The position numbers were made by a program, and so were the translations under genes. Below, piece by piece: positions 2,935-56,310 of a stretch of DNA of 64,000 bases. Within the stretch, counting starts at the first letter, position 1. The number at the start of each line of letters is the position of its first letter. The notes beneath the pieces were generated by a model that saw only the letters and a program-made list of their open reading frames with translations, did no database searches and was not told the origin of the DNA. The DNA comes from Halorubrum sp. CSM-61 (lineage in GTDB: Archaea > Halobacteriota > Halobacteria > Halobacteriales > Haloferacaceae), in NCBI RefSeq assembly GCF_003781945.1, contig NZ_RJJW01000002.1:313476-377475 (forward strand). The letters are read 5' to 3'.

Positions 2935-3340
2935 ATGCGGTGGCGCGCGCCTCCGAGCACCCTTTGGGTGCGAGGAGCGCCGCGCGAGGGAGTCGCTGGC
3001 GCCATCGGCGCCAGCGACAAGGCTGGGGAGGCGTGAGGCTGCGGTCCCGCGGGCGACCGACAGGAGTGAGCGGGAGCGTGGAAGTCGCAGCCCGCGCAGC
3101 GAACGGAGTGAGCGAGCAGGACCAGGGCGAGACCTCCGGTCTCGCTTGCTCACGCGGTGAAACCGCGTGACCGTCTTCCAGTGGTGCTGTGCGGGGCTGG
3201 GTGGGACTCAAAGGGGCCGCCGGTTTCAAGCAGAGCTTCGCTCTCGCCCCGCCGCGAGGGCGAAGCCTGACGACCTAAGTATCGCAAGGAGTGAGCGAAG
3301 CGAACGACTGAGCAACGCAACGAGTCACGCGAGTCGTCGC
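2935..3340 (+). repeat. Dispersed hairpin-rich element R1 (degraded copy)
   Basis: First of five related elements. It begins tgcggtggcgcgcgcctccgag, shows the conserved blocks gaggagcgccgcgcgaggga, gctggggaggcgtgagg and gggtgggactcaaaggggc in that order, and fills the gap upstream of hisG. Perfect hairpins sit at 2957-2971 (loop ttt), 2992-3018 (12-bp stem, loop atc), 3127-3145 (loop tcc) and 3150-3170 (loop gaa). The 3' arm and the tail module found in other copies are missing, because the sequence runs into the tnpB remnant at about 3341. The 5' TATA-like sequence is also absent. Confidence 0.8.
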
Positions 3341-3341
3341 C

Positions 3342-4045
<704 letters not shown>

Positions 4046-6964: not shown

Positions 6965-7587
6965 TATCTGACAGTGGAGCGACGGTGAACGCTCCCGGAG
7001 TCCGAGCCGCTCGCTTATAAGTGGTTACTCACGGCGGATCGACGGTGAACACCTCCAAAGCCCCAGCCGCTGCGGGCGCCGCACGCTCGCTGTCGTTCGA
7101 AAGGCGCAGAGCGCCTTTCGTGATGACGAGAGAGCTTTGCTCTCTCGAACCACGCTCCTCACTCGGTCGCTCACGGCGTTCGCTCCCTCGTTGCGGTGTC
7201 GCCGGCGGCGAAGCCGCCGGCTGCCCGTGGCGCTACGCGCCACGCTGCTTACGTCGTCATCAGAACGCTTTGCGTTCTGATTGGCTCACGAGAGCGGAGC
7301 TCTCGTGAACGCCTGCGCCGCCCGCAGCGGCTGCCCCTTTGAGTCCCGCCCCGCCCGCACCGCAACCGCACCTCACGCCTCCCCAGCCTCGCCGCTCGCG
7401 CTTAAAAGCGCTCGCGGCGTCCCTCGCACCGGCGTCGCCGGCGGCGCTGCCGCCGGCTGACAGAGGGACCTTCGGTCCCTCGCTGTTCGCGGCCTGACGG
7501 CCGCTCACCGGGGCGCAGGGAGGCGCGACGCGCCTCTTGCAGCCGGCGGCGAAGCCGCCGGCGACGCCACCGCCGTTCATTTATAAA
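6965..7587 (-). repeat. Dispersed hairpin-rich element R2 (largest copy)
   Basis: Reads on the minus strand and fills the gap between two divergent genes. A TATA-like tttataaa at 7580-7587 precedes the element start. Long-range arms at 7314-7333 and 7064-7083 pair at 19 of 20 positions. At least nine perfect hairpins with 3-nt loops lie at 7098-7120, 7127-7147, 7201-7221, 7227-7243, 7260-7280, 7286-7308, 7463-7481, 7520-7536 and 7542-7562. A stem at 7392-7417 has a symmetric GA/GA internal loop. The tail module occurs twice, the second copy diverged (6965-7020). No gene is apparent in this 750-base gap. Confidence 0.85.
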
Positions 7588-15562: not shown

Positions 15563-15955
15563 ACTTATAACTGATGTGCGGTGGCGCGCGCCTCCGAGCG
15601 GCTGCCCTCGGCAGCCGTGAGGAGCGCCGCGCGAGGGAGTCGGCCGGCGCTTATAAGCGCCGGCCGACGAGGCTGGGGAGGCGTGAGGTGCGGTTGCGGT
15701 GTGGTCGGGCGGGACTCAAAGGGGCAGCCGCTGCGGGCGGCGCAGGCGATGCAAGCACTGGAGGGAGCGAGCAACGCGAGCGACTGAAGCGCGCAGCGAG
15801 CGTGCGCCGCCCGCAGCGGCTGGGGCTTTGGAGGTCTTGACCGCGGAATCATCGATCACGTAGTACCGAGCGGCTGGGGCTTTGGAGGTCTTGACCGTCG
15901 ATCGGCTGTTAGCAACTTATAAGCGAGCGGCTGGGGCTTTGGCGGTGTTCACCAC
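15563..15955 (+). repeat. Dispersed hairpin-rich element R3 (clearest copy)
   Basis: Fills most of the 560-base gap between mdh and a glutaredoxin-like gene. A TATA-like cttataa at 15564-15570 precedes the shared start tgcggtggcgcgcgcctccg. A hairpin with loop ctc is at 15599-15617. A perfect 30-base palindrome centred on ttataa is at 15639-15668. Conserved core blocks follow. Long-range arms at 15725-15744 and 15803-15822 are perfectly complementary over 20 bases. The tail module (gcggctggggctttgg...) occurs three times in tandem (15815-15955). No gene is evident inside. Confidence 0.88.
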
Positions 15956-43830: not shown

Positions 43831-44196
43831 GTATTTAAACAAACACGGCGGTGCGGTGGCGCGCGCCTCCGAGTGGCCGCCATCGGCGGCCGCGAGGAGC
43901 GTCGTGCGAGGGACGCGGTGAGCGCTCGGAGAGCGCGAACCGCGAGGTTGGGGAGGCGTGAGGTGCGGTGCGGTTGCGGTCGGGTGGGACTCAAAGGGGC
44001 AGCCGCGCTCGGCGAACCCCAGCGACGTAAGCACCGCAGCGAGCAACGCGAGCGAGGAGCGCAGCGAGCTGTGGGAGCCGAGCGCGGCTGGGGCTTTGGA
44101 AGTGTTCACCGTCGATCGGCGGTCAACCACTTATAAACGAGCGGTTGGGCCTTTGGAAGTGTTCACCGTCGATCCGGCATTAACTACGGATAAGCG
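43831..44196 (+). repeat. Dispersed hairpin-rich element R4 (compact copy)
   Basis: Occupies the convergent gap between the M29 gene and pheT. A TATA-like tatttaaa (43832-43839) precedes the shared start. A hairpin with loop atc lies at 43875-43891, and a stem with a symmetric GA/GA internal loop at 43915-43943. The conserved gggactcaaaggggc block leads to arms 44000-44013 and 44077-44090, which pair perfectly over 14 bases although their sequence differs from the arms in R2, R3 and R5. Two tandem tail modules end the copy. No gene is visible in this gap of about 420 bases. Confidence 0.86.
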
Positions 44197-55924: not shown

Positions 55925-56310
55925 GTTTATAACCGATCGAGTGGCGTTGCTGTCGGCTGTTTATAAACGATCGACGGCACTGGGGTGATGGCTTTCAAAG
56001 CCCCAGCCGCTGAGAGCGGCGCACGCTCGCTGCGCTCCTCACTCGGTCGCGTTGCTCCCTCGTTGCGGTGCTTACGTCACCTGCGCCGCTCTCACCGACT
56101 GCCCCTTTGATTCCCACCCACCCGCAACCGCACAGCACCTCACACCTCCCCAGCCTCGTCACCGGACTACGTCCGGTTGCAAGCGAGAGCTTCGCTCTCG
56201 CCCTGTCGCTGGCGGCGACAGCCGCCAGCGACTCCCTCGCGCGGCGCTCCTTCGCGGCCGCCGGTGGCGGCCACTCGGAGGCGCACGCCACCGCATCGTT
56301 CGTTTATAGG
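55925..56310 (-). repeat. Dispersed hairpin-rich element R5
   Basis: Reads on the minus strand in the accessory region. A TATA-like ctataaac (56302-56309) precedes the shared start. Hairpins: 56256-56272 (loop ggt), 56205-56232 (12-bp stem, 4-nt loop), 56183-56201 (loop ttc) and 56161-56177 (loop tac). Long-range arms 56082-56101 and 56004-56023 pair at 18 of 20 positions plus one G-T wobble. The tail carries two further tttata motifs (55926-55980). The flanks 55725-55924 and 56311-56584 show no gene or further structure I can name. Confidence 0.83.

Follow-up and report, generated by a model that had tools for sequence, protein, structure and literature searches.

The attC sites of integrons fold as single strands, and their covarying arms and conserved unpaired features form the recognition signal. 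In bacteria, the REP, REPIN and BIME sequences with their RAYT (TnpA-REP) transposases are high-copy, intergenic and non-coding, persist for long periods with turnover, and form hairpins recognised as single strands. REPs are palindromes of 20-40 nt tagged with GTAG or CGTC, and a REPIN unit consists of a pair of hairpins in inverted orientation separated by a short spacer. Haloarchaeal MITEs are short non-coding repeats with terminal inverted repeats and a target-site duplication, and Rfam RNA families, including the IS605/TnpB- and IscB-associated RNAs, have covarying multi-stem structures with conserved unpaired motifs. No archaeal counterpart was found described for the bacterial REPINs as persistent, high-copy and structure-selected repeat populations.

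Five dispersed repeat copies (R1-R5) in a stretch of 64,000 nt from Halorubrum sp. CSM-61 (the window, meaning the whole stretch analysed) were compared with these systems. The family to which they belong resembles the REP/REPIN/BIME sequences in its copy number, its intergenic and non-coding nature, its persistence with turnover and its fold, and dyads outside Halorubrum show the paired inverted hairpins and the short spacer. It differs from them in residing in the archaeal class Halobacteria instead of in bacteria, and its P3 stem is about 115 nt long in a three-stem element, unlike the short tagged REP palindromes. Like MITEs it is short and non-coding, with inverted-repeat ends in some Halorubrum copies, but the internal fold is conserved instead of the ends, inverted ends occur in a subset only, and neither a target-site duplication nor clean ends were found, the flanks of the empty site of copy L028 being too diverged to read one. 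The covarying stems and conserved unpaired motifs are shared with Rfam families; in contrast to the IS605/TnpB- and IscB-associated RNAs, copies of the family do not accompany a protein gene, the exception being R1 with its neighbouring TnpB remnant. Its putative recognition signal also resembles in type that of attC, although attC sites lie in cassette arrays whereas the present copies are dispersed, have other conserved sequence and come without an integrase shown. The family is new and class-wide within the structured interspersed repeats. Of the defining features of REPINs, MITEs, Rfam families and TnpB RNAs that were tested, most were lacking or not clearly readable.

Results

Copies in the window and anatomy of the element

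All five copies listed by the first-pass annotation (2935-3340, 6965-7587, 15563-15955, 43831-44196 and 55925-56310) were present, with their blocks in the order given there (Table 1). R3, R4 and R5 were intact copies, R2 was swollen by small palindromes and R1 was truncated. The arms of R3 (15725-15744 / 15803-15822) were perfect reverse complements across 20 nt, and those of R4 (44000-44013 / 44077-44090) were exact over 14 nt with a sequence different from that of R3, both as described before. The near-full pairing attributed to R5 was seen, and the R2 arms paired as claimed, R2 being additionally enlarged by several unrelated palindromes. R1, from which arm 2 had been reported missing, lacked it and ended beside a truncated TnpB-type gene that followed directly (3387-3998; PF01385, 2e-17; PF07282, 5e-14). 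Small perfect palindromes (e.g. GCCGGCGGC..GCCGCCGGC) were also observed inside L007 and L022 as well as R2 (6965-7587), which suggests that Halorubrum has another class of insert, consisting of tiny palindromes.

Table 1. Coordinates of the element copies and of the parts of R3 in the window
Feature	Position	Strand	Evidence
R1, degraded, without arm 2, adjoins truncated TnpB	2936..3340	+	core profile; covariance model 58.4 bits
R2, core element swollen by inserted small palindromes	7040..7579	-	core profile, sequence
R3, complete core element (P1, P2, linkers, P3)	15577..15844	+	nhmmer core profile 229.9 bits, E 7.8e-69; covariance model 121.8 bits for P3 part
R4, complete core element; P3 part 43982-44098	43852..44114	+	core profile E 3e-50; covariance model 108.2 bits
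R5, complete core element; P3 part 55996-56119	55981..56295	-	core profile; covariance model 124.8 bits
R3 stem P1 (GGCGCGCGCCTCC..GAGGAGCGCCGCGC and inner hairpin)	15584..15632	+	17 pairs, 96.8% of cells paired, 8 pairs with two-sided change, 26 copies
R3 hairpin P2 (GTCGGCCGGCGCTTATAAGCGCCGGCCGAC)	15639..15668	+	11 pairs, 90.8% of cells paired, 7 pairs with two-sided change
Conserved G-rich unpaired linker GAGGCTGGGGAGGCGTGAGG and following	15669..15706	+	invariant or near-invariant alignment columns
R3 GGGCGGG, two conserved G-tracts directly 5' of P3	15707..15713	+	GGG-N-GGG conservation
R3 stem P3: CAAAG/CTTTG helix, GGG/GGG internal loop (15722-15724 / 15823-15825), arms 15725-15744 / 15803-15822, conserved apical part	15717..15830	+	
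R3 extra 3' repeat unit GAGCGGCTGGGGCTTTGG	15868..15885	+	sequence; same tandem unit in other copies
R3 second extra 3' repeat unit	15925..15942	+	sequence

The core ran in the order TGCGGTGG, P1 with an inner hairpin, GAGGGA, P2, the G-rich linker GAGGCTGGGGAGGCGTGAGG, the two G-tracts of GGGTGGG, and P3. Each element had three covarying stems (P1, P2 and P3), beyond the single stem reported earlier. In P3, which has conserved ends GGGTGGGACTSAAAGGGGC / GGGGCTTTS, an outer helix was followed inwards by a symmetric GGG/GGG internal loop, then by long arms of variable sequence, and at the apex by a conserved part (AAGCACCGCAG..GAGGAGCGCAGCGAG). The outer helix was CAAAG/CTTTG in Halorubrum and GAAAG/CTTTC in most other genera, and many copies outside Halorubrum consisted of P3 alone or of head-to-head dyads. 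In a set not selected for the motif, GGG-N-GGG stood upstream of P3 in 152 of 167 copies. The inverted-repeat ends (GCGGGAGTG.., CAGTACAGAC..) were found in only a subset of Halorubrum copies (part of those in G000).

Ends resembling GGCTCTGTTGAAA lay near several copies (flanks of L018, L027, L028, L136 and L151) and perhaps belong to a separate IS-derived MITE sharing insertion sites. Units of about 57 nt that contain CGGCTGGGGCTTTGG were repeated in tandem 3' of R3 (15868-15942) and at L017, where up to four copies were counted, and a TTATAA motif occurred in most of these units.

Copy number and distribution

Searching the genome of the window with R3 gave 40 scored copies among 247 first-look candidates, with E values from 2e-137 to 2e-59, which excluded the chance GC-rich similarity named earlier as a refuting outcome. 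R1-R5 belong to an undescribed repeat family far exceeding five copies. In sampled stretches the density was about 50 copies/Mb in the window's genome and about 80/Mb in a second species. A covariance model of the long stem had been proposed as the check, and when it was run on Halorubrum and other haloarchaeal genomes a large class-wide family was recovered. The P3 model found 137 copies in a complete 3.1-Mb Halorubrum genome (G042) and at least 150 in another (G048).

By DNA search, the family occurred in all 52 Halorubrum genomes and in 84 of 119 genomes sampled from the same taxonomic family, and the covariance model detected the fold in 90 of 116 Halobacteria genomes representing 35 of 45 genera. 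When a collection of 84,980 genomes was scanned by pattern, all among the matches listed bore haloarchaeal names. The phage collection searched gave no match to the family, and the plasmid search gave three weak ones. With Rfam cmscan at the gathering threshold, tRNA-Lys was the sole match in the window and the repeats had none; no description of them was found in the literature searched, in agreement with the earlier statement that no described family matches.

Covariation of the stems and the folded strand

Among 63 sequences from many genera, 97.4% of P3 pair cells were paired compared to 77.6% after shuffling, and 24 of the 30 P3 pairs showed two-sided change. The P3 covariation score was 0.489, against 0.137 for shuffled and at most 0.069 for slid controls, and it exceeded 500 of 500 shuffles and all slid controls. 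P1 and P2 covaried likewise (26 copies). Together with the mismatch bias given below, these results supported the proposal that compensatory change reflects selection acting on a folded molecule, either RNA or single-stranded DNA, the copies in the covariation sets being related to one another and not independent. Correction of palindromes within a strand could account for some of the covariation.

The GGG/GGG loop was kept in 161 of 167 copies, though it could be repaired to pairs (the loci were fetched without a pattern demanding the loop, by a finder that required AAAG and CTTT). Arm mismatches were G.U in 35 cases and A.C in 7; with each sequence context counted once the numbers were 40 and 13, in a set that includes pattern-picked loci. 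Given the excess of G.U over A.C and a loop that is almost never repaired, the folded strand is probably the G-rich + strand. Transcription-linked mutational strand asymmetry could contribute to the excess of G.U. ViennaRNA gave an identical fold with and without its quadruplex option, in which a loop holding a long hairpin is, as far as we know, not representable.

Genomic context

The copies sat in intergenic DNA, mostly between convergent genes; the flanking genes in Halorubrum were convergent in 28 cases, same-direction in 20 and divergent in 6. Orientation toward genes was only mildly biased, and a 3'-UTR element was rejected because this bias was not strong. On the chromosome scale, no replication-strand bias was seen in G042 and G048. 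In five non-Halorubrum genomes all 22 close pairs were divergent and 20 had a spacer of 18-28 nt, while in Halorubrum single copies predominated over dyads. The close pairs of G022 and G000 were inspected for an autonomous copy whose dyad encloses an ORF; none was found, and the genes between close pairs were housekeeping genes. A guide RNA of the TnpB/IS605 type, which would lie at the 3' end of tnpB, was rejected since most copies lie between host genes and R1 alone adjoins a TnpB remnant.

The Y1 transposase domain PF01797 was not detected in the element-rich genomes G015, G001, G029, G007, G066, G073 and G083, and REP/RAYT membership was rejected for this reason. The element-free genomes G056, G059 and G052 carry 5-10 such transposases. 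A resident Y1 transposase, the REPIN enzyme, is therefore not required.

Gain and turnover of sites

The G000 copy L028 was absent from all six relatives compared, with the flanks of the empty site too diverged to read the joint. At four orthologous loci (A, B, C and E), relatives had an element at the corresponding position but facing the other way. Syntenic copies across species were no more alike than random ones (similarity rank 14-44 of 45), despite flanking coding DNA that was mostly 80-95% identical. These results showed that sites turn over or are overwritten, and the overwriting of syntenic copies could be gene conversion instead of movement. Because sites are overwritten or replaced, the covariation is a sign less of a fixed function at each site than of selection on copies that replicate or interchange.

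Discussion

A conserved fold with changing paired letters points to a mobile or RNA-like element, seemingly uncatalogued. In Halobacteria compensatory change maintains the fold of a high-copy, intergenic family that gains copies and whose sites undergo turnover or overwriting. The best explanation, to which we give an even chance, is that these are class-wide haloarchaeal non-autonomous interspersed elements, active in the form of their folded G-rich strand and working in a REPIN-like manner. A putative trans-acting factor would bind the folded strand as single-stranded DNA or RNA. It would recognise P3, including the GGG/GGG loop and the conserved apical loop and 3' tail, in many cases with two copies arranged as a head-to-head dyad. 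This factor may move or copy the element into intergenic sites, of which convergent gene ends would be best tolerated, and copies losing the fold would stop spreading and decay like R1. Two hairpins would thus work as one replicating unit, as in REPINs, with a putative enzyme other than the resident Y1 transposase.

The strongest competitor, tentative and on balance rather unlikely, is a multicopy non-coding RNA family, in which the elements would be transcribed, act in trans or bind protein as folded RNA, multiply like RNA genes and co-evolve by gene conversion. Several features are consistent with RNA: G.U is tolerated more than A.C, the internal loops may contain tandem G.A pairs (as judged from the sequence), covarying pairs enclose an A.A mismatch that has been kept, and the apical loop is conserved. 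In addition, many Halorubrum copies carry TTTATAA about 12 nt upstream of the core. However, that box would place the transcript start inside P1, and no TATA-like box was seen upstream of the dyads of other genera. The mild orientation bias toward genes also argues against transcribed units, and more than 100 near-equal copies with rapid turnover of sites would be unusual for RNA genes.

The non-autonomous element can also be given a more specific, speculative form. All four G-tracts are conserved, and on this ground GGGTGGG may dock into the GGG/GGG loop and form a quadruplex of three tetrads flanked by two covarying helices, a fold that molar potassium inside the cell would favour. A mobile or selfish haloarchaeal element whose replication passes through a folded, G-rich molecule of this kind (RNA or single-stranded DNA) and which is spread by a non-Y1 enzyme is considered unlikely in all these details. 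The covariance model, together with simple mutants, makes mobility, RNA expression and quadruplex folding directly testable, and the family spans the whole class and is abundant in the cultivable Halorubrum, Haloarcula and Natrinema.

It is quite improbable that these are ordinary double-stranded palindromic repeats whose fold has no function, with template switching (quasi-palindrome correction) keeping them perfect and ectopic gene conversion spreading them. The small palindromes accumulating in R2, L007 and L022, the arms that often change wholesale and the overwritten syntenic copies would fit such repeats, but the GGG/GGG loop and the A.A mismatch stay uncorrected across the class, the unpaired linkers are conserved and the dyad spacing is exact (18-28 nt). 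Strand-neutral correction would also not give the asymmetry between G.U and A.C, though deamination of a transcription-displaced strand could mimic it. A host-useful bidirectional boundary between convergent genes (terminator, insulator or mRNA 3'-end stabiliser) is very improbable: the excess at convergent gene ends with a deficit at divergent promoters, and the close pairs flanking single housekeeping genes, would suit it, yet any tolerated insertion is expected to be depleted at promoters, congeners differ by gain and loss at sites, and a terminator needs far less than a sequence-specific three-stem fold.

The family also bears on genome plasticity, as inverted copies flank single housekeeping genes and one of these, msrA, is inverted between species. 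Among Halorubrum pairs less than 2.5 kb apart in G048 and G042 (e.g. L352-L370), 20 of 25 were in + then - orientation, a count that does not represent independent events since several of the loci are common to both genomes. The pairs bracket single genes such as cysS, msrA, hisA, thi4, SRP54 and ferredoxin (names read from translations). The idea of mobile gene cassettes bounded by two elements was rejected in the case of cysS because this gene keeps pheA and ilvA as neighbours in most relatives. The orientation of msrA relative to ribH in G009, G017, G036 and G037 was the reverse of that in G048, G042, G022, G025, G015, G045 and G001; msrA was flanked by inverted elements in G048 and G042, and in G036 an element lay between msrA and ribH.
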